Shown here piece by piece: positions 23,013-47,726 of a stretch of 64,000 nt of DNA. Position 1 is the first letter of the stretch. Every line of letters begins with the position of its first letter. The position numbers were made by a program, and so were the translations under genes. Origin of the DNA: Chloroflexota bacterium (lineage in GTDB: Bacteria > Chloroflexota > Anaerolineae > Promineifilales > Promineifilaceae); assembly GCA_013112725.1 (NCBI GenBank), contig JABFFZ010000001.1, positions 62,001-126,000 of the forward strand, read 5' to 3'. Under the pieces are notes generated by a model. It ran no database searches, was not told the DNA's origin, and saw only the letters and a list, made by a program, of their open reading frames with translations.

Positions 23013-23043
23013 GACATCCGATTTCTTCAAGAAATCGGATGTC
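23013..23043. repeat. 31-nt perfect palindrome
   Basis: Fifteen bases, GACATCCGATTTCTT, and their exact complement flank a single central C. It lies between two minus-strand genes and could act as terminator of the upstream methyltransferase gene or as a dispersed palindromic element. Confidence 0.85.
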
Positions 23044-35111: not shown

Positions 35112-36522
35112 ATGCACACCATATTAAATTTAGAGCAGCAGAACGTGCTGCTGGATAATATGCGTGATACGGTTATCACGCACAGATTTACGGTTTCATA
35201 TTTTAAGCTGGAATAGAGTCGCCACTATCATGTATGGTTGGGAGCCGGAAGAGGTGTTAGGGCAGTTTGTCAATGACATTATTCCCCAATATCAAGTTGG
35301 CAGTTCATATGAAGAGGCGGTAGAACGGCTGGTTAGCCAGGGTTATTATGAAGGGGAGGCCATCCAGACCTGCCGCGATGGCCGGCAGCTGCGCGTGTGG
35401 GCCAAAGTGACGTTATTGCGGAATAATGCCGGTGAGCCGGTAGGCGCGTTGGCCTTAAACCGAGACATGACGGAGCGCCATCAGATGGAGCAGGCGCTCA
35501 GCCAACGTCTGGCGATGGAGCAGTTTGTGGCGGAAATGGCTGCCCAATTTATCAATTTATCTCCCACTCCCAGCCAGGTAGATGTGGCCGTTGATGAGGC
35601 GCTGCGGCTGGCAGCTGAGTTTGCGGGGCTATGCATAGCGCGGTCTTCATGCTTTATGATGATCTGGCGCGGATCACCAATACCCATGAGTGGTGCGCCG
35701 ATCCCGCTGATTCACAGAAACTGCAATTGCAAAATGTGGTGGTGCGGCAACTGCACCTGACGATGATGCGCTTTGCGTCAGGTGAAAACCTGATCATTTC
35801 CCGTCCCCAAGAAGCAGAAAACCTGCCGGGAATCAATACCTGGATGTCTCGGCATAGCTTTCGGGCTATGCTGTTTGTGCCTATGTTTTATCAGGGTGAG
35901 TTAGTGGGGGCATTGGGTTTTTTGGGCCGGTGGGTGTGGAGATGGCGTGGCCTGATGTATGGGTGACGATGTTGACATTGTTGAATTTGGTGATTGTGAA
36001 TGCCCTCCAGCGCAAGCGGGCTGACGAGCAGCGGCGGGCGTATGAGCTGGAACTGGAGCGGAGCAATGATGAGCTGCAAGAGTTTGCTTTTGTGGCTTCC
36101 CACGATTTACAAGAGCCGCTGCGTGAGCCGCTGCGTGAGATTCTGACGTTTGGGGAGCGGTTGCATTCACGGTATGGAGAGCGGTTAGAGCGGTTGGACG
36201 AGCGGGGTTTGGATTATTTGCAGCGGTTGGAACGTTCGGCGATGCGCATGCAGTTGTTGTTGGATGGATTGCTGCTGTATTCGCGGGTGCAAACACAGGA
36301 TCGTCCGTTTGAGCCGGTCAATTTAACGGCCGTCCGCCACGCCGTCCTATCTGATTTAGAAGCCCAAATTGAGCGCGTCAACGGCCGTGTCACCCCATTT
36401 GCCGCAAAATTGTGCTGCGCCATTATGGCCACGTAGCGGCCCATAGCATCCCTGACAACGGGACAACATTTGTGGTACAGCTTCCCTTTACCCAATTGCC
36501 CCCCGGCCAGAAGATGATATAA
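35112..36522 (+). pseudogene. Degraded PAS-GAF sensor histidine kinase
   Basis: The parts of one gene lie in shifting frames. From ATG 35112 comes LNLEQQNVLLDNMRDTVI. A shift near 35178 leads to a PAS domain (FHILSWNRVATIMYGWEPEEVLGQ). A shift near 35630 leads into a GAF domain (MHSAVFMLYDDLARI). A shift near 35925 leads to a HisKA domain with the phospho-acceptor in FVASHDLQEPLRE. After that most of the ATPase domain is deleted; only its end (NGTTFVVQLPF) remains near 36465. At least three frameshifts and a deletion make it clearly nonfunctional. A PLREPLRE duplication sits at the His box. Confidence 0.85.
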
Positions 36523-36530
36523 ACAGGCAC

Positions 36531-38348
36531 ATGCCTGATGAAGAAGTGCTGATTGACAGCCTGATTGTGTACAAAAACCAGCCCGGTCGGGTGGTGCAGA
36601 CCGGCAAGAAACTGTTCATCGAACTGCCGGATGGCAGCCGCCTGAGTGTTCGCCCCAAAGATGTCCTCTTGCTGCATCCTGGCCCCACGCCGGTGTTGTC
36701 TCGCTTGCAACCGCCGCCCGGCGATATGCAGACCGCCTGTGAACTGCTGGCCGGGCAGACCACTACGCTGCCCGAACTGGCCGAGCTGGTGTATGATGAA
36801 TTTACGCCGGCGACCGCCTGGGCTATCTGGCAGCAGTTAGCCGATGGTTTGTATCTGGGTGGCGCCCCGGAAGCGATTGTGGTGCATACACCTGACGTGG
36901 TCACCCACATTCAGGCGGAACGGGCTGCCAAAGCGGCTGCCGAACAACAGTGGCAGGAATTTTTGGGGCGTTTGCAAGACGGCCGTTACCAGCCCGAAGA
37001 CGCCGGCTATTTGCAGGAAGTGGTCGCCCTGGCCACCGGACAACGCGAAAACAGCAAAATCCTGCGCGCTCTTCATCAATCTGAAACCCCCGAACAGGCC
37101 CACGCCTTGCTGCTCAAAACCGGCTATTGGGACGAAATGGTCAACCCCTACCCCCAACGCCTGGGCTTACCCACCCAATTACCCGATTACCCAATTACCC
37201 AATTACCCGATGAAGATCGCCGTGACCTCACTCACCTGCCTGCCTTTGCCATTGACGACGAGGACAACCAGGACCCTGACGACGCCCTGAGCCTGGACGG
37301 TGATCGGTTGTGGGTGCATGTGGCTGATGTGGCTGTGTTGGTTCCCCCTGGCAGCCCGGCGGATGAAGAAGCCCGCACCCGTGCCGCCAACCTGTATTTG
37401 CCCGAAGGCACGGTGCCTATGCTGCCGCCTATGGTCACACACATGTTAGGGTTAGGATTGGACGAGGTGTCGCCCGCACTGTCATTTGGATTGGATTTAG
37501 CGGCCGACGGTGGCATTGCCCGGGTGGAGATTGTACCCAGTTGGGTGCGGGTAACGCGCCTGACCTATGAGCAGGTGGAGGTGCGGCTGGGGGAAGAGCC
37601 GTTTGCCACTTTGTATGCTTTGGCACGGCGTTTTGAAGCGCGCCGCCGCGAAAATGGCGCGGTGTTTATTGATCTGCCGGAGGTGAAGGTGCGGGTGGAA
37701 GAGGGGGAAGTGGTGATACGGCCGTTGCCCTCTTTGCGCAGCCGTGCCCTGGTGATGGAGGCGATGCTGATGACCGGGGAAGCGGTGGCGCGCTACGCGG
37801 TGCAGCACAATGTTCCCCTGCCGTTCACCATTCAAGACCCGCCGGATGCGGATGAACGGGAACCGGCACGGCCGTCGGCCATGCTCGCCCTCCGCAAAAA
37901 ATTACAACGCAGCCAGCAGGTCACATCCCCCGGTATTCACGCCGGGTTGGGGCTGAATTTGTATGCCCAATCCACCAGCCCCCTGCGCCGTTACCTGGAC
38001 CTGGTGGTACATCAGCAGCTACGCGCCCACCTGCACGGCCAACCGCTGTTGAATGCGGCGGCGATTGTGGAACGGGTGGGTACGGCCGATGCCGTCATCG
38101 GCGCTGTGCGCCAGGCTGAACGGTTGTCGAACACCCATTGGAAGCTGGTCTATTTGCTGCAAAATCCAGGATGGGAAGGCGAAGGCATTATTTTAGATCA
38201 GCGGGGCAACCGTAGTGTGGTGCTGCTGCCTGACCTGGATTTGGAGACGGAGCTATACATCAAGGGCAGCCCGCCATTGGACAGCATGGTGGCGCTGGCA
38301 TCAACCGGCGTTGACCTGCCTCGATTGGAGGCGCACTTCCGCGCCTGA
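36531..38348 (+). CDS. RNase II/R family exoribonuclease (RNB domain)
   Basis: A 605-residue 3'-to-5' exoribonuclease. The RNB catalytic core starts near residue 235 with the acidic cluster AIDDEDNQDPDDALSL (Asp242 to Asp251), then HVADVAVLVPPGSPAD and GTVPMLPP. It ends with QSTSPLRRYLDLVVHQQL, which carries the conserved Arg. The N-terminal part lacks clear cold-shock domains and looks like the divergent short form seen in several phyla and in cyanobacteria. Residues about 212-225 (PTQLPDYPITQLP) are encoded by a GTAATTG-type repeat just before the catalytic domain. It starts 8 nt after the pseudogene above. Confidence 0.88.
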   Translation: MPDEEVLIDSLIVYKNQPGRVVQTGKKLFIELPDGSRLSVRPKDVLLLHPGPTPVLSRLQPPPGDMQTACELLAGQTTTLPELAELVYDEFTPATAWAIWQQLADGLYLGGAPEAIVVHTPDVVTHIQAERAAKAAAEQQWQEFLGRLQDGRYQPEDAGYLQEVVALATGQRENSKILRALHQSETPEQAHALLLKTGYWDEMVNPYPQRLGLPTQLPDYPITQLPDEDRRDLTHLPAFAIDDEDNQDPDDALSLDGDRLWVHVADVAVLVPPGSPADEEARTRAANLYLPEGTVPMLPPMVTHMLGLGLDEVSPALSFGLDLAADGGIARVEIVPSWVRVTRLTYEQVEVRLGEEPFATLYALARRFEARRRENGAVFIDLPEVKVRVEEGEVVIRPLPSLRSRALVMEAMLMTGEAVARYAVQHNVPLPFTIQDPPDADEREPARPSAMLALRKKLQRSQQVTSPGIHAGLGLNLYAQSTSPLRRYLDLVVHQQLRAHLHGQPLLNAAAIVERVGTADAVIGAVRQAERLSNTHWKLVYLLQNPGWEGEGIILDQRGNRSVVLLPDLDLETELYIKGSPPLDSMVALASTGVDLPRLEAHFRA

Positions 38349-38401
38349 TTGGTACAGGTATAAGCGTGATGTGTTTGATTGAAAGGAAGCGGTGATAGGT
38401 G

Positions 38402-38745
38402 ATGGCAGAGATAAACACGCTTGTGCCCGTCGAGCAGCGGGAAGTTGAGTTTTATGGAGATGAGTTAACGGCCGTGCGGTTAGCTAGTGGGCAGATTTAT
38501 GCCTTTATCAGCCAGATGTGCCGCGCTTTAGGCCTGGATACCCAGACCCAACGGCAGCGGATAGAACGTCATACTATTCTCGCCAGAGGCTTAGGGGTAT
38601 GCAAGACAGCTATGTCTTACGGGTTGGCCTAGTGCCGCTGTGGTTATCCGGTATACGCACCAGCGCCGTGAATGAGCAAGTGCGGCCCAAGCTGGAAAAA
38701 TCCCAGTGGTACCAACGTCTGACCAATCAGGATATTTCCTTTTAG
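38402..38745 (+). pseudogene. Broken P22_AR_N-type antirepressor homologue
   Basis: The N-terminal half reads VEQREVEFYGDELTAVRL and QMCRALGLDTQTQRQRI, a P22 antirepressor N-terminal domain. The frame shifts near 38600-38620 and continues as VLRVGLVPLWLSGI. It then jumps directly to WYQRLTNQDISF, which is the very C-terminus of the intact paralogue downstream. The middle and most of the C-terminal domain are missing. It is a decayed tandem duplicate of the next gene. Confidence 0.8.
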
Positions 38746-38768
38746 TGGACGGCCGTTCGGGAGGAACT

Positions 38769-39569
38769 ATGACGAAGAAATTGATCATCATTGAACAGCG
38801 TGAGGTACAGTTATATGAAGACATGGTAATGGCCGTGCGCACAAATAATGGGCAAATTTATGTCTCTATTAAACACATGTGCCATGCTCTGGGGCTAGAC
38901 GATAGAAGCCAGCGCCGGCGCATTCAAACCCATTCCATCCTGGCTGAAGGGTATCAAAGGGGGGACATTTCAACCCCCCCTTCAGAAGGGGGACGTGGCG
39001 GCGGTCGTCAAGAGGCCACTTTACTGCGGGTAGATCTGGTCCCTTTGTGGCTGGCCGGCATAGAGGCAGGCAAAGTGGCCGAGAATATGCGTGCAAAGCT
39101 GGAAAATTTCCAACGAGGGGCCGCCGCTGTTCTGTGGGAAGCGTTTCAGGAAGGGCGGTTAACGGCCGACCCCGATTTTGATACGCTCTTAAAACGGGCC
39201 AGCGCCGACGCCGTGGAAGCGTATCAGATGGCGCTGGCGGTGGTGAAGCTGGCGCGTAACCAGATTATGATCGAGGCGCGGCTGGATGATTACGGCCGTC
39301 GCCTGGAAGCCATCGAAGCGACCCTCAGCGTATCGGAACGTTTTATCACCCGCGAACAGGCCAGCCGCATTTCCCAGGCTGTGCGGGCCATTGGGCATGT
39401 GCTGTCAGAGCGGGGTGGCCGTAGTGAATATGGTGCGGTCTATGGCGAACTGTACCGCAACTTTGAAATCTCCGCCTACCGCGAACTACCTGCCCAAAAA
39501 TATGACGAAGCGATGAAATGGCTCAACGCCTGGTACCAGCGCCTGACCAATCAAGACATCCCTTTCTGA
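38769..39569 (+). CDS. Phage antirepressor-like protein (P22_AR_N plus ORF6C-like domain)
   Basis: A 266-residue protein. The N-terminal P22_AR_N domain (IEQREVQLYEDMVMAV, MCHALGLDDRSQRRRI, LVPLWLAGI) is followed by a helical C-terminal part resembling ORF6C (ITREQASRISQAVRAIGH...YRNFEISAYRELP). Such proteins in phages relieve repression. In this genome no other phage gene is nearby, so it is probably a domesticated regulator. A GDISTPPSEGGRGGGR stretch interrupts the N-domain boundary and is encoded by a C-rich/G-rich palindromic repeat (about 38957-39005) absent from the broken paralogue. GGGAGGA precedes ATG 38769. Confidence 0.82.
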   Translation: MTKKLIIIEQREVQLYEDMVMAVRTNNGQIYVSIKHMCHALGLDDRSQRRRIQTHSILAEGYQRGDISTPPSEGGRGGGRQEATLLRVDLVPLWLAGIEAGKVAENMRAKLENFQRGAAAVLWEAFQEGRLTADPDFDTLLKRASADAVEAYQMALAVVKLARNQIMIEARLDDYGRRLEAIEATLSVSERFITREQASRISQAVRAIGHVLSERGGRSEYGAVYGELYRNFEISAYRELPAQKYDEAMKWLNAWYQRLTNQDIPF

Positions 39570-39586
39570 TACGAAATTGCCAAACA

Positions 39587-39633
39587 CCCTCACTAACTTT
39601 TGTAAGAAAGCGCATGTCCAAGTGGTGAGGGTG
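39587..39633. terminator. Stem-loop after the antirepressor gene
   Basis: CACCCTCAC (39587-39595) pairs with GTGAGGGTG (39625-39633) across a 29-nt loop. No T tract follows, so a terminator role is tentative. Confidence 0.45.
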
Positions 39634-39713
39634 GTGATAGAATACGGCCGTTTTGTCACCATACCCCGTGTCCCCACTTCGGATTACGGATTATGATTGA
39701 CGGATTACGAAAT

Positions 39714-40847
39714 ATGACCCAACCCGCTTTACTCGCCCTCGAAGACGGCGCTACCTGGCCTGGTATTGCCTTTGGCGCAATGGGTACCACCACCGGCGAA
39801 ATCGTCTTCAACACCAGCCTCACCGGCTACCAGGAAATCCTCACCGACCCCTCCTATCACGGCCAGATCATCACCCTGACCCAGCCGCACATTGGCAACA
39901 CCGGCTGCAACCCGGAAGATGATGAAAGCGGCCGTGTCTGGGCCGCCGGGTTTGTGGTGCGCAGCCTTAGCCCGGTGGTGAGCAACTGGCGCGCCACCCA
40001 ATCCCTGCCGGATTACCTGGCGGAACGGGGCGTGGTAGGTATCACTGAAGTGGACACCCGCGCCCTGGTGCGCCACATTCGCACCTATGGGGCCATGCGG
40101 GCCGCCCTTTCCAGCGAAATCACCGACGCGGCGGAACTGGTTGCCGTGGCCCGCGCCGCCCGCGATATGAACGGTCTCGATCTCGTCCGTGAAGTGACCT
40201 GCGCCGAGCCGTATCACTGGACGGAGGCGGCGGATTGGTGGCAGCCGGATGGAGAGCGGTTATCGGTAATCGGTAATCGGTATCATGTGGTGGCCTATGA
40301 TTTTGGGATTAAGCGGAATATGTTGCGGCTGTTGGCGGGGAAGGGGTGCCGGATAACGGTGGTGCCCGCCACGACTCCAGCAGCCGATGTGCTGGCCATG
40401 AACCCGGATGGCATTTTCCTCTCCAATGGGCCGGGCGACCCGGCGGCGTGTACGTATGCGGTGACGGCCGTGCGCGAACTGCTTGGCCAGAAACCGATTT
40501 TTGGCATTTGCCTGGGGCATCAGATTTTGGGGCTGGCACTGGGGGCCAGCACGTACAAGTTGAAGTTTGGACATCGGGGGGGGAATCAGCCGGTGCAGGT
40601 GGTGGCACACGGCCGTGTGCAAATTTCCAGCCACAATCACGGTTTTGCCGTAGACGCCCTGACCTTGCCGGACGGCGCACTCAATTCGCACATCAACCTG
40701 AACGACACCTGCTGCGAAGGCATAGACGCCCCCAACTACCGCGCCTTTTCCGTGCAGTACCACCCGGAAAGCTCCCCCGGCCCGCACGATTCGGATGAAT
40801 TGTTTGACAAGTTTGTGGATTTAATGGAAGGGGAGATTGGAGATTAA
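39714..40847 (+). CDS. carA: Carbamoyl-phosphate synthase small subunit CarA
   Basis: The glutaminase subunit that passes ammonia to CarB for carbamoyl phosphate, feeding pyrimidine and arginine synthesis. The 377-residue product has the CarA N-terminal domain ([30 protein letters not shown]) and a class I glutamine amidotransferase with nucleophile Cys266 in GICLGHQ and the late [11 protein letters not shown]. Residues about 182-190 (RLSVIGNRY), at the junction of the two domains, are encoded by a CGGTAAT repeat. The C-terminal EGEIGD and stop are also repeat-derived. carB is not adjacent: 1.5 kb of unrelated genes intervene. Confidence 0.96.
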
Positions 40848-40877
40848 GAGATTGGAGATTAAGAATTGCAGCAAACA

Positions 40878-41837
40878 ATGGTGGGTTACAAAGCAGACCT
40901 GAACCGGCGATATTGGGAATATCAAAAGTCTCACTTTTCATCCTGGCAAGATTACTTTGAGCGTCCCTTTGCGCCAGACGGCCGTCCACCCGTCTTTATT
41001 GCCACCGAATCATGGCGAAACATCATCGTCAATCCCGCTGCGAGCCAACTAGAAATTGACAAATTGCTTTCTTTCGTGCCGGTGGGTGAAAGACACAAAT
41101 GGTTTCGCAGCATGAACAGTTCGCAGGCATTGGCTCAGAGCATTTTAGGCAATCTGGCGAACCACAACTTGTTGCACCATCTCTCTGAGATTAAGGATGA
41201 TACTGGCCTGGATTTACTGAGCAAAGTGCAACTTTCGTCAGATAACTTTGTGATGGAACACAAAATAAGCTATCTTGGTGAGCCGCGCCCAACAAGCCTC
41301 GACGCCTATTTTTCTGGAGATTACCATATAGCAATTGAGTGTAAGTTTACAGAAGCAGAAATAGGGATTTGTTCACGGCCACGTTTAAAACCAACCGCTT
41401 CAAATTATGAGCGTGAGCATTGTAATGGTACGTATGCCATCCAAAGAGCGCGAAAAGAGCGATGTTCATTGAGTGAAGTTGGCGTTTTATACTGGCGTTA
41501 TGTCCCAGCCCTGTTCAAATGGCGAGATGTTAGCGACTTAACGGTATGCCCCCTGAATAAAAATTATCAATTGGTCAGAAACGTTTTGGCGGTTGGTGTG
41601 AAGCCTGATGGAACTGTTTCTGTTGATAATGGTCATGTGGTACTCATTTATGATGCCCGGAATCCGGCTTTCCAAAAAGGTGGAGACGGGCTGGTTGCTT
41701 TTATAGAGACACAAACAGCCTTGCAAGAGCCAACCATGCTGCGGAAATGTAGTTGGCAACGCATTGTCCACCACATGAGAGAAAAGGGCGTATTGCCCTG
41801 GCTAACGGAGCATTTAGTTCTGAAGTATGGGCTGTAA
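40878..41837 (+). CDS. PGN_0703-like putative restriction endonuclease
   Basis: A 319-residue protein resembling the PGN_0703 family of predicted PD-(D/E)xK nucleases. The core reads DAYFSGDYHIAIECKFTEAE, giving the Asp...Glu-x-Lys signature. A set of conserved cysteines follows (ICSRPR, EHCNGTY, ERCSLSEVGVLYW). The biological role is not settled and it may belong to defence. It lies between carA and carB on the same strand. No cognate methylase is adjacent. The nearby repeat-rich start region makes ATG 40878 the likely start. Confidence 0.72.
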   Translation: MVGYKADLNRRYWEYQKSHFSSWQDYFERPFAPDGRPPVFIATESWRNIIVNPAASQLEIDKLLSFVPVGERHKWFRSMNSSQALAQSILGNLANHNLLHHLSEIKDDTGLDLLSKVQLSSDNFVMEHKISYLGEPRPTSLDAYFSGDYHIAIECKFTEAEIGICSRPRLKPTASNYEREHCNGTYAIQRARKERCSLSEVGVLYWRYVPALFKWRDVSDLTVCPLNKNYQLVRNVLAVGVKPDGTVSVDNGHVVLIYDARNPAFQKGGDGLVAFIETQTALQEPTMLRKCSWQRIVHHMREKGVLPWLTEHLVLKYGL

Positions 41838-41842
41838 ATGCG

Positions 41843-42058
41843 CTAGGCCATTTCTGGCAAACGTTCTACCTGGATAGGTAGTACTTGATCTAAATTAAGA
41901 TGAGAGGAAGCATCTAGAATTTCAATGCCCACGATTTTATCTGTTTCGCCAATGTCTAAAACAATGTCCTCATTCAGGCGTTGGTTGATAATATCCTGTT
42001 GGCGAGCATCGAAGCGAATATATAACACATCTGTTTTGGTGTTGTATGTTATCTGCAT
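41843..42058 (-). CDS. DUF2283 family protein, putative antitoxin-like partner
   Basis: A 71-residue protein with the DUF2283 pattern: ITYNTKTDVLYIRFDARQQ, NEDIVLDIGETDKIVGIEILDAS. These small beta-rich proteins are commonly encoded next to DUF4258 proteins, as here, 4 nt downstream of the partner's stop. The pair is suspected to be a toxin-antitoxin-like module. Start 42058 (MQITYN) fits the family; upstream open codons belong to the partner overlap region. Confidence 0.85.
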   Translation of the reverse strand: MQITYNTKTDVLYIRFDARQQDIINQRLNEDIVLDIGETDKIVGIEILDASSHLNLDQVLPIQVERLPEMA

Positions 42059-42062
42059 GGCA

Positions 42063-42323
42063 TCACTCCCATTTGCCGTGAAAAACATAGGCGGTCACCG
42101 TAACGACCACACCGTTTTCTACCACATAAATGACTTCAACTCTTTTTTGTTCATAGTAACGGCCGTGCCGCTCTTGTTTATAATCGTACACTTTGGCTTT
42201 TGCCAGACGGCCGTGCCTGGCGCTAACAGGTTGCCCATTCTCAACCACGTCTCGAATTTCATCTTCCGAAGTCCCCCGCTCAACAATTCGTTCCAATGTG
42301 TGGGGGTCAATTTGAACATTCAT
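42063..42323 (-). CDS. DUF4258 family protein, putative RelE-like toxin
   Basis: An 86-residue protein with the DUF4258 pattern: [30 protein letters not shown], then [18 protein letters not shown]. The fold is thought to be related to RelE/ParE toxins, but mRNA cleavage is unproven. It forms a two-gene unit with DUF2283. The pair is inserted, in opposite orientation, just upstream of carB, whose start is 59 nt away. Confidence 0.82.
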
Positions 42324-42382
42324 GGTATTTCCTGCCAGCCACCATACTTATGGGCGGATTATACCATCTTAAGGGAAAAACC

Positions 42383-45300
42383 GTGCCCAAACGAACTGAC
42401 ATCTATTCCATTTTGATTATTGGCTCTGGCCCGATTGTGATTGGGCAGGCGTGTGAATTTGATTACTCCGGCGTGCAGGCGTGCAAAGTGCTGCGCCGTG
42501 AGGGGTATCGCGTCGTCCTGGTTAACTCCAACCCCGCCACTATTATGACCGACCCGGACGTGGCCGACGCTACCTACGTCGAACCACTGACACCTGACCT
42601 GGTGGAAAAAATCATCGAAATCGAAAAGCCGGATGCTTTACTGCCTACCGTTGGCGGGCAAACCGGCCTGAATCTCTCCGTGCAGTTGGCCGAGTCCGGC
42701 ATCCTGGCAAAACATGGTGTGCAGCTCATTGGCGCTGATTTGACGGCGATCCGGCTGGCCGAAGACCGCTCCAAATTTAAGCAGGCGATGATGGCTGCCG
42801 GTGTGCCTGTGCCCGTCAGTTATTTCGTGTATTCAGTAGAGGAGGCGTGGACGGCCGTTGCCGACATCGGTTTCCCCGCCCTCATCCGCGCCAGTTTCAC
42901 GTTGGGCGGCACCGGCGGCGGCATCGCCGAAACGCCCGACGAATTCGAGGCCATCGTGGCGCACGGACTACGTTCCAGCCCGGTGGGGGAGGTGCTGATT
43001 GAGCGATCCTTGCTCGGCTGGAAAGAGTATGAACTGGAAGTGATGCGTGACCGCGCCGACAACTTTGTAGTCGTCTGCTCCATTGAAAACGTAGACCCCA
43101 TGGGGGTGCATACCGGCGACAGCATCACCGTCGCCCCGGCCTACACACTGACGGACAAGGAGTACCAACACCTGCGTGACCTGGCCAAGTGGGTGATGCA
43201 GGCGGTGGGCGTGGAAACGGGCGGCAGCAATGTGCAGTTTGCCGTCAATCCGGCCAACGGCGAGGTCATCGTCATCGAGATGAATCCGCGTGTTTCTCGC
43301 TCTTCGGCGTTGGCGAGTAAGGCGACGGGTTTTCCCATCGCCAAAATTGCGGCGTTGTTGGCGGTGGGGTACACGCTGGACGAAATTCCCAACGACATCA
43401 CGCGGGTGACGCCCGTCAGTTTTGAGCCGAGCATTGATTATTGCGTGGTCAAAATTCCGCGCTGGAATTTTGAGAAGTTCCCCGGCGTGGATGCCCGGCT
43501 GGGGCCGCAGATGAAGAGCGTGGGGGAGGTGATGGCTATTGGCCGTACCTTCCCGGAGGCGTTGAACAAGGCGATTCGTGGCCTGGAAATTGGCGCGCCC
43601 GGTTTTAGCTGCCTGCTGGCGGAAAAGGCGACGCCGGACGCGCTGCGGGTGCCCACGGCGCAGCGGTTGTGGAATGTGGCGATGGGGTTGGGTAACGGCC
43701 ATACTGCCACCGACATTGCCGCCGAAACCGGCTTTGATCCCTGGTTTGTGGCGCAGTTGCAGGAAATTTTGGAAGTGGAAAAGGCATTGCAGACCTGTCA
43801 GGTCTCAGAAGACCTGACAGGTCTATTGCGCCGCGCCAAACGCAAGGGCTTCTCCGACGCCGTCATTGCTCATGCGCTGGGTGTTACGGAAACGGCCGTG
43901 CGCCTACGGCGCAAAGAACTGGGTATCGTGCCCGCCTACTACCGCGTGGACACCTGCGCTGCCGAGTTTGAGGCGCACACGCCGTACCTTTATTCCACTT
44001 ACGAAAGTGACTGCGAAGCCAACCCCTCAGAACGGCCCAAAGTGATGATTTTGGGCGGTGGGCCAAACCGGATCGGGCAGGGCATTGAGTTTGACTATTG
44101 CTGTGTGCAGGCGTGTTGGGCGCTGGGCGAACTGGGTTACGAGACGATCATGGTTAACTGCAACCCGGAGACGGTGAGTACCGATTATGATACGGCCGAC
44201 CGCCTTTATTTTGAGCCGCTGACGTTGGAAGATGTGCTAAACATTGTGGACTTAGAGCAGCCAGACGGCGTCATTGTGCAGTTTGGCGGGCAGACGCCTA
44301 TTAACCTGACGGCAGGGCTGGCGGCAGCGGGCGTCCCGATTTGGGGCACGCCGCCGGACAGCATCCACCTGGCCGAGGATCGCGGCCGTTTTGGCGACCT
44401 GCTGCGGGCATTGGAGATTGACCATCCGCAGTGGGGGATGGCGCAGTCACAGGAGGAGGCTTTGGCGATTGTGAAACGGGTGGGGTATCCAGTGCTGGTA
44501 CGGCCGTCGTTCGTTCTTGGTGGTCGCGCCATGGCCATTGCCTATGATGATGCCTCGCTGCTGGCGTTCCTGGCCGAAGCCGCCCGCGTCTCGCCCGGCA
44601 ATCCGGTGCTGATTGACCAATTCATTGAAGACGCCTTTGAGGTGGATGTGGATGCGGTGTCTGACGGCGAAGATGTGGTCATCGCCGGGGTGATGCAGCA
44701 CATTGAGGAAGCGGGTGTGCATTCCGGCGACAGTGCGTGTGTGCTGCCGCCCTACAAAATCAGCCTCTACCACCTGAGCATCATCCGCGACTACACCGAA
44801 AAGCTGGGCCTTGCCTTGCAGGTGAGGGGGCTGATGAACGTGCAGTTTGCCATCAAGGATGATGTGGTCTACGTGATTGAAGTCAATCCACGCGCCAGCC
44901 GCACCGTGCCGTTTGTGAGCAAAGCGACCGGTGTACCCATTGCCAAAATTGCCGCCCAGGTGCAGGCAGGCAAGACGCTGGCGGAACTCAATTTCCGGGA
45001 AACGCCGGAAGTGGACGGCTTTTTTGTGAAGGAGGCAGTGCTGCCCTTTAACAAATTGCCCGGCGCTGACCCGCGCCTCAGCCCGGAGATGCGCAGTACG
45101 GGCGAAGTGATGGGGCACGCCGCTCGTTTTGGGCACGCTTTTGCCAAGTCGCAACTGGCGGCGGGAACCAGCCTACCCACTGAAGGCAGTGTGCTGATTA
45201 CGGTGAACGATTACGACAAGGGGGCGGCGATGAAGATCGCCCGTGATTTGCACAGGATGGGGTTCAAGTTATATGCGACGGCGGGCACGGCCGTAGCTTT

Positions 45301-45586
45301 AGGACACGCCGGGCTGCCGGTGGAAGTGGTGCAAAAAGCGGGCCAGCCGGGCAAAACAACGGTAGATGTCATTAAAAACGGGGAGATTCAGCTCCTTATC
45401 AATACGCCTTTAGGTCAGCAGGCTCATGCAGATCAATCGGCCATGTATGCGGCCGCCATTCGCCACAATGTGCCACTCATCACCACACTGTCGGCGGCGC
45501 AGGCGGCCGTGAACGGCATCCGGGCCTTGCGCGAAAAAGATTTCCAGGTGCGCAGTTTGCAGGCGCATCATGCCGGAAATCGGTAA
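42383..45586 (+). CDS. carB: Carbamoyl-phosphate synthase large subunit CarB
   Basis: The synthetase subunit, with two homologous ATP-grasp halves, makes carbamoyl phosphate from bicarbonate, ammonia and two ATP. The product is 1067 residues, close to E. coli CarB. The first half starts at [24 protein letters not shown] and has an ATP-grasp glycine loop FTLGGTGGG. The second half starts at [20 protein letters not shown]-terminal MGS-like allosteric domain begins near [13 protein letters not shown]. The start is GTG 42383 with AAGGGA 6 nt upstream; the longer open frame begins inside the DUF4258 gene. Residues about 470-481 ([12 protein letters not shown]) come from a palindromic repeat. Confidence 0.96.
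43791..43824. repeat. 15-bp palindromic repeat inside carB
   Basis: AGACCTGTCAGGTCT and its exact complement AGACCTGACAGGTCT, separated by 4 nt, sit in frame in the oligomerisation region between the two halves of CarB. The motif matches the inner arms of 7524-7616. Confidence 0.9.
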
Positions 45587-45759
45587 TCCGTGGTCGGTTA
45601 TCGGTAATCGGTGTGGCTGTTTTCCAAATGAAATTGCCAAAACAGAACACATGTACTACCATCCCGTCTGAAATATCGGCAAGATGAATGAAAATCAAAC
45701 GCGGATAACGCGGATTTAATCGGTGGAATCTGTGGATTGTTTTCACAGGAGCATTGGTG

Positions 45760-46440
45760 ATGGAGACATTTCGGGCAGGTGAACGAGTGGCGACGGGGTA
45801 TCTGGCACGGCCGTCCACCACATCCGGCAAGGGTGTGTTGGTATTGCATCCCTGGTGGGGTCTCAATGAATTTATCAAGGAGTTGTGTGACCGGCTGGCC
45901 GGTGAAGGGTTTGTGGCTTTTGCACCGGATTTGTATGACGGCCGTACCGCCACCACCATTACCCAGGCCGAACAACTTAGTAGTACACTCGATTTTGAGG
46001 CGACTATCCCCGTTGTGTTGGGGGGGGTGGATTATTTGCGCGGGCAAACGGCCGTGCCAGACACAAAAATAGGCGTGATTGGTCTTTCTATGGGGGCCGC
46101 CTGGACGTTGTGGTTGGCCACCGAATCCCGACCTGATGACGTGACGGCCGTTGTTCTCTTTTACGGCAACTGGCCTGGTTTCAGCCGGGAGAAGTTTGCC
46201 AAGACCGAAGCCGCTTTTCTGGGACACTTTGCCGCAAACGATCCCTATGAAGAACCAGAGGGGATTGAAGAAACCCGCCGCGAGATAGAAGAAGCCAGAC
46301 GGGAAGTCACCTTCCACACCTACCCTGAAACGGGCCATTGGTTTTTTGAAAGTAATCGGCCAGATGCTTATCATCAGGCAGCAGCTGCGTTGGCCTGGGA
46401 GCGAACGGTCACTTTCTTGAAAAACCGCTTGAACCGCTGA
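45760..46440 (+). CDS. Dienelactone hydrolase family protein
   Basis: A 226-residue cytoplasmic alpha/beta hydrolase. Family segments are GVLVLHPWWGLNEFIKELCDRLA, APDLYDGRT and the nucleophile elbow IGLSMGAAW. Here the nucleophile is Ser, where classical dienelactone hydrolases have Cys. The catalytic His lies in YPETGHWF. The natural substrate is unclear. AGGAG lies 8 nt before ATG 45760. It follows carB after 170 nt of repeat-rich spacer (CGGTAAT family at about 45585-45612). Confidence 0.87.
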   Translation: METFRAGERVATGYLARPSTTSGKGVLVLHPWWGLNEFIKELCDRLAGEGFVAFAPDLYDGRTATTITQAEQLSSTLDFEATIPVVLGGVDYLRGQTAVPDTKIGVIGLSMGAAWTLWLATESRPDDVTAVVLFYGNWPGFSREKFAKTEAAFLGHFAANDPYEEPEGIEETRREIEEARREVTFHTYPETGHWFFESNRPDAYHQAAAALAWERTVTFLKNRLNR

Positions 46441-46546
46441 GAAAGAAGATGCAGAAACTCAAAGATTACGCAGAACCTGTTCTGAGGCTACCGAAGGATT
46501 TCACCGATTAGAAAATTTGTGTAATCTGCGCAATCTTTGGTTGTTT

Positions 46547-46996
46547 TCAGGCCGAAACCGGCTCTTCATCTTCGCTCCATTCGTGCAGCACCACCATGCT
46601 GAAAATGTCAGATTCGGTGATGACACCGACCAGTTTGCCACGATTGTCTACGACAGGAAGCCCACTAATCCGGTTTTCCAGCATCACCCGGGCGGCGTCG
46701 CCAATGGTGGCTTCTTCGTTAACAGTGATGGGATCGGGCGTCATAATTTTGGCAACTTTCAGTTGGGAAAGCAGGTAATTGAGTTCCCAAATGCTAAGTG
46801 AGGTAGCCGGGGATGGTTGCGCCCCACGTACATCACCACGGGTGACAATGCCAACGAGACGGCCGTCAGAGTCAACTACGGGCAGCCGCCGAATTTCTTC
46901 ATTCATCATAATCTGATGGGCTTCTGGTAAAGTCGTGTCTGGTGTCACGGTGATAATCTCCCGCGTCATCCAGTCGCGTACTAATTCTCGTTTCAT
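46547..46996 (-). CDS. Two-CBS-domain protein
   Basis: A 149-residue protein made of two CBS domains: VRDWMTREIITVTPDTTLPEAHQIM...VTRGDVRGA and VAKIMTPDPITVNEEATIGDAARVMLENRISGLPVV. CBS pairs bind adenine nucleotides and report energy status, usually to a partner. The linker SIWELNYLLSQL is typical of stand-alone CBS proteins of environmental bacteria. The partner is unknown. It is divergent from the rnpB region. Confidence 0.93.
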   Translation of the reverse strand: MKRELVRDWMTREIITVTPDTTLPEAHQIMMNEEIRRLPVVDSDGRLVGIVTRGDVRGAQPSPATSLSIWELNYLLSQLKVAKIMTPDPITVNEEATIGDAARVMLENRISGLPVVDNRGKLVGVITESDIFSMVVLHEWSEDEEPVSA

Positions 46997-47134
46997 GGCT
47001 GTTCATTCTCCTTGTGCCAGGGTTCGGAAATAAGTTTATTTACCTTTTAGTCTAGTCGGAGATCGGGGGATTGACAATTACGAAAGTCATCCAAACAGCA
47101 TGATAAATTAAAGCATACGACCCATATAAAGGGG

Positions 47135-47164
47135 AAGACGCCGCCCGGGGGTGGGCGGCGTCTT
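47135..47164. terminator. 12-bp GC-rich hairpin upstream of rnpB
   Basis: AAGACGCCGCCC (47135-47146) pairs perfectly with 47153-47164 around a 6-nt loop. It lies in the 289-nt space between the CBS gene and rnpB. It could insulate rnpB or be part of an unseen transcript. No long T run follows. Confidence 0.6.
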
Positions 47165-47249
47165 GGAGCAGAATAAGCTTTGTGTAAAGCGTGAAGAAGT
47201 TATGGAGTTTATAAGCTGCCAAACTTACAACGGTTCTGACAAAACAAAC

Positions 47250-47278
47250 TTGCTTGATGGCACGGTCAAAGATAGGAT
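47250..47278 (+). promoter_or_regulatory. Putative promoter of rnpB
   Basis: TTGCTT (47250-47255), a 17-nt spacer and TAGGAT (47273-47278) place transcription start at about 47285, exactly where the P1 helix of the RNA begins. Confidence 0.65.
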
Positions 47279-47285
47279 CGGGGTA

Positions 47286-47726
47286 CCAGGTTGGCCGGGT
47301 GATCGCGGTCAGCGATCTGGCTACGGTCAGGAAACTGGCTGAGGAAAGTCCGCACTCCACAGAGCACGGCGCCGGCTAACGGCCGGGCGGGGCAACCCGA
47401 CGGCAAGTGCAACAGAGAGGCGTATTGCCTGTTTTGGGCACAGCCCGAAGCAGGTGAGGGTGAAACGGTGGTGTAAGAGACCACCGGCAGCGGCAGTAAT
47501 GCGGCTGGCCAGGCAAACTCCCGCCGGGAGCAAGACCAAGCAGGGTGGAAGGTGTGCCGGGATAACTCCTGCGGGAGTTTTCTGCGGCCATCTACGGGGC
47601 GGCTCGTCCCGTCTGACATCCGGGTAGGTCGCTTGAGGGCGATAGTAATATCGCTCCCAGATAGATGATCACCGGCGTCTGGTCACTGACCGGGCGTTAC
47701 AGAATGCGGCTTATAGGCTGACCTGG
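47286..47726 (+). ncRNA. rnpB: RNase P RNA (bacterial class A)
   Basis: The catalytic RNA that trims 5' leaders of tRNA precursors. P1 is formed by CCAGGTTGGCC (47286-47296) and GGCTGACCTGG (47716-47726), all 11 positions pairing with two G-U. Universal core blocks are visible: GAGGAAAGTCCGCACTCC near 47341, CAGGTGAGGGTGAAACGG near 47451 and AGAATGCGGCTTATAGGCTG near 47701. The length of about 441 nt fits class A with extra helices. A 23-bp repeat hairpin follows directly and may terminate it. Confidence 0.96.

Follow-up and report, generated by a model that had tools for sequence, protein, structure and literature searches.

The genes carA and carB, which normally lie side by side and encode an essential enzyme, are interrupted in other bacteria as well, by an extra ORF in Pseudomonas and by a large, variable insert in Neisseria, and those loci resemble the one described here in having extra sequence between the two genes. 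To our knowledge, their cargo is neither the nuclease nor the gene pair found in the present case. Proteins of the DUF4258 family occur in the literature (excerpts of PMC11980606, PMC4861877 and PMC4963859), and in 2025 they were tabulated as a toxin family and called undescribed (excerpt of PMC11980606). The type II modules in that excerpt place the antitoxin first and have MqsA-type fusions; our pair shares with them a small two-gene unit, a short spacing and likely translational coupling, but has DUF4258 first and DUF2283 as its partner. Divergent transcription from a near-symmetrical -10 element is described in an excerpt of PMC10268837.

Here, we describe the 1,535-nt interval between carA and carB in a 64,000-nt stretch of DNA, referred to as the window (G000:C1:62001-126000), from the 5.5-Mb draft genome of an uncultured Chloroflexota bacterium. 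The interval holds a putative nuclease gene and a DUF4258-DUF2283 pair (Table 1). We consider it probable that this junction has repeatedly gained, swapped and lost cargo, that the pair and the nuclease arrived separately, and that carB was rescued by the short gap in front of it.

The locus and its counterparts within the genus

Table 1. Features at and around the carA-carB junction (positions are those of the window).
Feature	Position	Strand	Evidence
29-nt palindrome, dispersed in five of the six congeners	23014..23042		
Two tandem P22_AR_N antirepressor-like genes, the first short, directly upstream of carA	38399..39569		
carA, carbamoyl-phosphate synthase small subunit	39714..40847	+	TIGR01368, E 1.2e-146
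Putative PD-(D/E)XK nuclease, REase-ARP family, 319 aa, ATG start	40878..41837	+	PF22558, E 4.4e-21
DUF2283 protein, 71 aa, second gene of the pair, candidate antitoxin or partner	41843..42058	-	PF10049, E 1.2e-13
DUF4258-like protein, 86 aa, first gene of the pair, candidate RelE/ParE-superfamily toxin	42063..42323	-	PF14076, 22.9 bits
Divergent 59-nt gap, DUF4258 start to carB start	42324..42382	.	GATTATA box and AAGGG (+); TATAAT (-)
carB, carbamoyl-phosphate synthase large subunit, GTG start	42383..45586	+	TIGR01369 and NF003671, E 0
RNase P RNA, bacterial class A, running into the end of the scanned stretch	47287..47500	+	Rfam

An earlier note on this DNA had proposed an insert between carA and carB, with the toxin-like gene lying 59 nt from the carB start; ORFs and Pfam profiles confirm every part at its claimed position, and the distance was measured as 59 nt. 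Both carA and carB are complete, with unambiguous Pfam identities, and their single matches (one each) are the only CPSase genes found in the genome. The nuclease gene begins 30 nt after the carA stop codon and is in line with carA. All inserted genes are under purifying selection (dN/dS 0.06-0.19), including the nuclease, with a dN/dS of 0.14 between G000 and its congener G004. An assembly artefact of a single MAG was ruled out, as the same order of nuclease and pair is present in an independent MAG (G004), and the pair is also present in G001.

No integrase, transposase or recombinase ORF was found in the insert by ORF and Pfam analysis, no target duplication or terminal repeats were visible by eye in comparison with the empty sites of G003 and G005, and Rfam gave no RNA regulator at the junction (window 36000-47500, RNase P beyond carB excepted). 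Searches for solved structures by sequence yielded nothing for entry P0004, designed proteins only, with weak E-values, for P0005, and chance-level Cas9 rows for P0002. Relatives of the antirepressor-like genes upstream of carA occupy the same place in other members of the genus, with 44-67% identity.

The same junction was compared in the six species of the genus (G000-G005), whose flanking genes are syntenic as far as the contigs reach. The nuclease and the pair lie between carA and carB in two species (G000 and G004), a gene for a 465-aa lipoprotein-like protein accompanies the pair in another (G001), and G002 has lost DUF4258 and retained DUF2283 alone, with a repeat-like stretch at the expected place of DUF4258. 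The two genes touch in the remaining two species, overlapping by 17 nt in G003 and separated by 3 nt in G005. Because the contents vary in this way between congeners, the nuclease and the pair would have arrived separately.

Touching genes are likely the starting state in the genus: carA and carB would originally have touched or overlapped, as they do in G003 and G005. A horizontally spread unit of DUF4258 followed by DUF2283 would then have inserted itself in opposite orientation at their junction. The lone REase-ARP nuclease gene would have entered by a separate event, downstream of carA and in its direction. In the tree of carA and carB proteins, (((((G000,G002)85,G004)31,G001)51,G003)100,G005), species G003 is basal to the insert-bearing species only at support 51, and in the nucleotide tree it moves beside G000 (support 65), i.e. 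inside that group, so that the absence of the insert from G003 may reflect a loss and not an original lack of it. The history of the nuclease could be either one gain followed by a loss in G002, or two gains.

By eye, the stretch of about 200 nt between DUF2283 and carB in G002 (L033), which replaces DUF4258, is bounded by inverted CGGCATGGTTCA and TGAACCATGCCG and resembles a small transposable repeat. The dispersed palindrome listed in Table 1 has 22 forward matches in G000, 33 in G001, 29 in G002, 16 in G003, 24 in G004 and none in G005, with none for the reversed control. In G001 and G002 copies fall between carA and carB, and in G002 a copy with 2 mismatches lies between pheS and pheT.

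The DUF4258-DUF2283 pair and the nuclease

The most interesting component of the insert is the DUF4258-DUF2283 pair. DUF2283 scores above the cut-off of its Pfam family, and the DUF4258-like protein scores under that of DUF4258 (cut-off 25; E 1.1e-4). DUF2283 was found in at least 88 and DUF4258 in at least 75 of 148 genomes. Among the matches listed (150 x 150), DUF4258 is followed by DUF2283 on the same strand in at least 32 cases from 29 genomes, with 29-50 nt between the domain ends, and all 32 of these listed cases fall among the 68 weaker-scoring DUF4258 matches; the window pair is absent from the 32 because its DUF4258 is not among the matches listed. A DUF4258-like ORF lies immediately upstream at 24 of the 30 DUF2283 loci inspected by eye. 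The window DUF2283 was aligned with 22 relatives. DUF4258 and DUF2283 are thus a conserved two-gene unit at many loci, and this order is a clean, repeatable association across phyla.

The pair is also present in unrelated contexts and phyla. As for its closest relatives outside the genus, another Chloroflexi MAG carries it (66% identity for DUF4258, 58% for DUF2283) after a recN-like gene, which we take to be recN, a Brocadiaceae MAG (62% and 52%) between cobalamin synthesis-like genes, presumably cobD/cbiB and cobB/cbiA, and a Deltaproteobacteria MAG (64% and 57%) at a contig end. A relative from within the family (L170) is only 33% identical, and identities of 62-66% in distant genomes against 33% within the family fit horizontal spread. 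The pair looks like a travelling toxin-antitoxin-like unit, probably moved by transfer between lineages. Carriage of the pair by phages or plasmids was considered and rejected, as DUF4258 is without a match in plasmids or viral contigs.

Within the unit, the last codons of DUF4258 (AAATGGGAG) resemble a ribosome site serving DUF2283. They stand just before the DUF2283 start in the window and in the relatives L165-L168, and GGGAG precedes the DUF2283 ATG in all of these.

The predicted structure of DUF4258 (pLDDT 87.7) has two helices followed by three long strands. Foldseek against the PDB found nothing at E <= 0.001; H. pylori HP0892 headed the rows (E 0.06, probability 0.96), followed by a toxin-antitoxin complex from Salmonella. 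VIA-align, run on the Foldseek candidates and read on a scale where Z below 8 can reflect a common arrangement, gave BrnT (Z 7.3, rmsd 2.8, 73 aligned), the Salmonella toxin (Z 7.2, rmsd 3.2, 76 aligned), MqsR (Z 7.1, rmsd 2.2, 66 aligned), colicin E5 (Z 6.5, rmsd 3.4, 69 aligned) and RelE (Z 6.3, rmsd 2.7, 68 aligned). The further rows are mostly toxins of related names and the top rows are BECR toxins, and since every Z is below 8, a toxin-fold family is supported but not proven. Among RelE/ParE-superfamily toxins, the predicted fold aligns best with BrnT, MqsR, RelE and YoeB, and weakly resembles the RelE, BrnT and MqsR toxins. The DUF2283 model (pLDDT 85.5) has five strands, and Foldseek returned nothing at E <= 0.001 and no clear relative; one partial match of 58 columns was to an entry titled GATB-YTPR (integrative model), at E 0.045.

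The pair is most likely a type II toxin-antitoxin module, in which a RelE/BrnT-like RNase, the putative toxin, would be held by DUF2283. DUF2283 has no mention that we found in the literature searched, and its accession, PF10049, appears in an excerpt in an unrelated-looking use. With DUF4258 called undescribed (excerpt of PMC11980606) and DUF2283 without a mention found, their pairing offers a testable partner. The insert had been called defence-like, a description that PADLOC does not bear out: neither the nuclease nor DUF2283 has a match, and DUF4258 matches AbiEi only (E 0.011).

The nuclease matches PF22558 at 76.1 bits (cut-off 27) over its C-terminal three quarters. The motif T-S-L-D ... 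I-E-C-K-F-T-E is retained in a 13-member family alignment, and by eye it holds the PD-(D/E)XK residues (D of TSLDA; E and K of IECKFTE); the likeness of the window protein to REase-ARP and PD-(D/E)XK enzymes lies in this active-site motif and the above-cut-off C-terminal match. The name PGN_0703, under which the nuclease had been introduced, was not borne out by an NCBIfam match, and no literature mention was found under PGN_0703 or PF22558. The protein has no match in phages, and its plasmid matches are all partial, in 38 Rhizobium, Sinorhizobium and Ensifer records (31-42% identity among the best 15). Outside the genus, the nearest relative seen (66% identical) belongs to G111, which is in a different family of the class. 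Inspection by eye of G000, G004 and the other loci read showed neither a methylase nor any other fixed partner near the gene; the window nuclease stands solitary. It is most likely a lone restriction-like enzyme.

The distribution of these parts also bears on whether a single defence or selfish module comprising all three genes was inserted in one event. All three are together in G000 and G004, which would suit such a module, but G001 has the pair without the nuclease, and PF22558, present in 12 of 148 genomes, lies beside the pair only in G000 and G004 among the matches listed, the other 10 of the 12 carrying it without an adjoining pair. At its other loci the nuclease has unrelated neighbours, and dS between G000 and G004 is 0.81 for the nuclease vs 0.42 and 0.35 for the pair genes. 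On the distribution of nuclease and pair, we reject a single three-gene module, which we regard as very unlikely. The earlier note had proposed looking for co-occurrence of the three genes elsewhere, and they were found together in those two species alone among the matches listed. Its suggestion of a small mobile or selfish module in a core operon is supported for the pair, which behaves as if it were a unit landing in core operons, but not for the three genes together, and no integrase, transposase or target duplication accompanies them.

The 59-nt gap and carB expression

A GATTATA box and a purine run such as AAGGG precede carB in the four species with DUF2283 (G000, G001, G002 and G004), and G003 and G005 are without the box. 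On the minus strand the box is a perfect TATAAT, which three species carry 34 nt ahead of the DUF4258 start; under single-letter shuffling, TATAAT occurs in 1.7-3.4% of shuffles per gap. The gap as a whole is conserved in G000, G001 and G004. A consensus scan found no full sigma-70 promoter upstream of carB in the 59-nt gap. A toxin promoter travelling with the pair was rejected, as the pair lacks an upstream TATAAT box in L167 and L168; for the same reason the box seems to belong to the genus of the window.

Judged by its upstream sequence, carB appears to possess a ribosome site specific to it, and the putative toxin promoter seems to share an AT-rich box with carB. With no full sigma-70 promoter found and the box seemingly confined to the genus, a captured or shared promoter of carB is something that we infer rather than observe. 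In likeness to the bidirectional promoters in the excerpt of PMC10268837, the gap has TATAAT toward the putative toxin gene and, on the opposite strand, TATAAC or TATACC toward carB.

In the reading that we prefer, in which cargo was gained, swapped and lost repeatedly, carB would survive because the 59-nt gap gives it a ribosome site of its own and probably a promoter. The AT-rich, near-symmetrical box would then be both part of the carB promoter and the -10 element of the toxin gene, with read-through from carA perhaps helping.

A further proposal, which we put forward tentatively and consider rather doubtful, is that DUF4258 and DUF2283 form a toxin-antitoxin family, so far undescribed and spread horizontally, with DUF2283 as its antitoxin, and that the pair handed a promoter to carB, an essential gene of biosynthesis. 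DUF2283 would then be a small beta protein in which no DNA-binding domain is recognised, and the pair, lying head-to-head with carB, would have supplied the carB promoter by virtue of its own symmetrical -10 box. If so, CPSase expression would be tied to the module, and deletion of the module would be costly to the cell.

carA-carB spacing across the class

We looked for carA and carB in 148 genomes and counted genes on one contig in the order carA-carB as linked, which yielded 59 linked pairs from 58 genomes (G111 has two). This count leaves out G092 and G123, which have the order carB-carA, 11 genomes in which no carB shares the contig and strand of carA, a carA fragment in G122, and, where carB is split, its second fragments. 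The spacing is less than 400 nt in 40 of the 59 linked pairs and at least 400 nt in 19 (10 of 16 in the family of the window, 9 of 43 in other families).

These spacings also bear on an ancestral origin of the carA-insert-carB order, in the genus or in the class, with short spacings arising by deletion. The earlier note had named a gene order conserved across the whole class as the case for such an origin; instead, carA and carB touch in G003 and G005 and most class pairs are short-spaced. An ancestral insert would be compatible with G003, whose place outside the insert-bearing species is insecure, but G005, the deepest member of the genus, is short-spaced, and the cargo in other families is unrelated. 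An ancestral order is rejected for the class on the 40 of 59 linked pairs under 400 nt, and for genus and class together we consider it quite unlikely. Comparison of the carAB spacing in relatives, a check that had been suggested for this locus, thus points to a derived insert, not one ancestral for the class.

From one clade to another, unrelated cargo occupies the carA-carB interval; in relatives it is mostly of ordinary metabolism, and defence genes have no special claim to the site. It includes rhodanese (G006, G027), methyltransferase (G029, G040), both of these together (G031), a 183-aa protein with membrane-like stretches (G030), Uma2 (G074), GNAT (G076, G111), a 23S-intervening-sequence protein (also G076), homoserine dehydrogenase (G078, G085, G112), TIR (G109) and HD-NUDIX (G146); one member of each kind was profile-scanned and the others were named by likeness. 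The other cargo is oriented as carA, and the pair in the genus is the one opposite-strand unit found. By eye, the start of a DUF2283-like protein follows homoserine dehydrogenase on the + strand in the carA-carB interval of G112 (L066).

As a control, pheS-pheT spacing was at least 400 nt in 15 of 112 linked genomes and in 3 of 34 in the family, among the matches listed; 12 pheT starts were shifted upstream, the profile match having begun inside the protein. Fisher's test of carA-carB against pheS-pheT gave p 0.005 for all genomes and 1.4e-4 for the family, values that are too small because the genomes are related and not independent. The pheS-pheT gap is 54-82 nt in five congeners, and among the six species it is split in G000 only, by 2,356 nt (G000:C49:16568-18923, L164) that are mostly one 770-aa membrane-like ORF. 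Near carAB, 22 intervals between 23 conserved, hand-chosen landmark genes were also compared, with the antirepressor-like genes, an ORF at 45754, the inserted genes and genes present in few species excluded as landmarks; 6 of the 22 differ by 400 nt or more between congeners, and carA-carB is one of the 6.

The junction could be a true insertion hot spot, with its conserved flanks serving as homology arms and its cargo exchanged by recombination between relatives, which we hold to be possible, though not the likelier account. The excess over pheS-pheT in the family (10 of 16 vs 3 of 34) points that way, as does G001, in which a 34-nt second carB start sits between the lipoprotein gene and the pair. 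This second start matches the carB start of G022 at 31 of 34 positions and that of G001 itself at 26 of 34, which hints, from a single short case, that the cargo came with a foreign carB end by recombination; the lipoprotein itself has no close relative in the 148 genomes. Against a hot spot, the genomes are not independent, ordinary intervals nearby are equally variable (the 6 of 22 noted above), and the extra carB start was seen once, over 34 nt.

The split of pheS-pheT and the 6 variable intervals indicate that splitting of core operons is common in this lineage, and carA-carB is at the high end of it. The interruption of carA-carB is true and derived, and mostly ordinary operon loosening for the class. 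In Anaerolineae, even the subunit pairs of core enzymes are readily parted by unrelated cargo, so that operon neighbourhood is an unreliable guide to what genes do in that class. Of the 148 genomes, 77 gave no match to carA at 1e-40 and 78 none to carB at 1e-100, including the near-complete G028 (3 contigs, 99%); by these searches, many members of the class seem to have lost CPSase or to use an enzyme that differs strongly.
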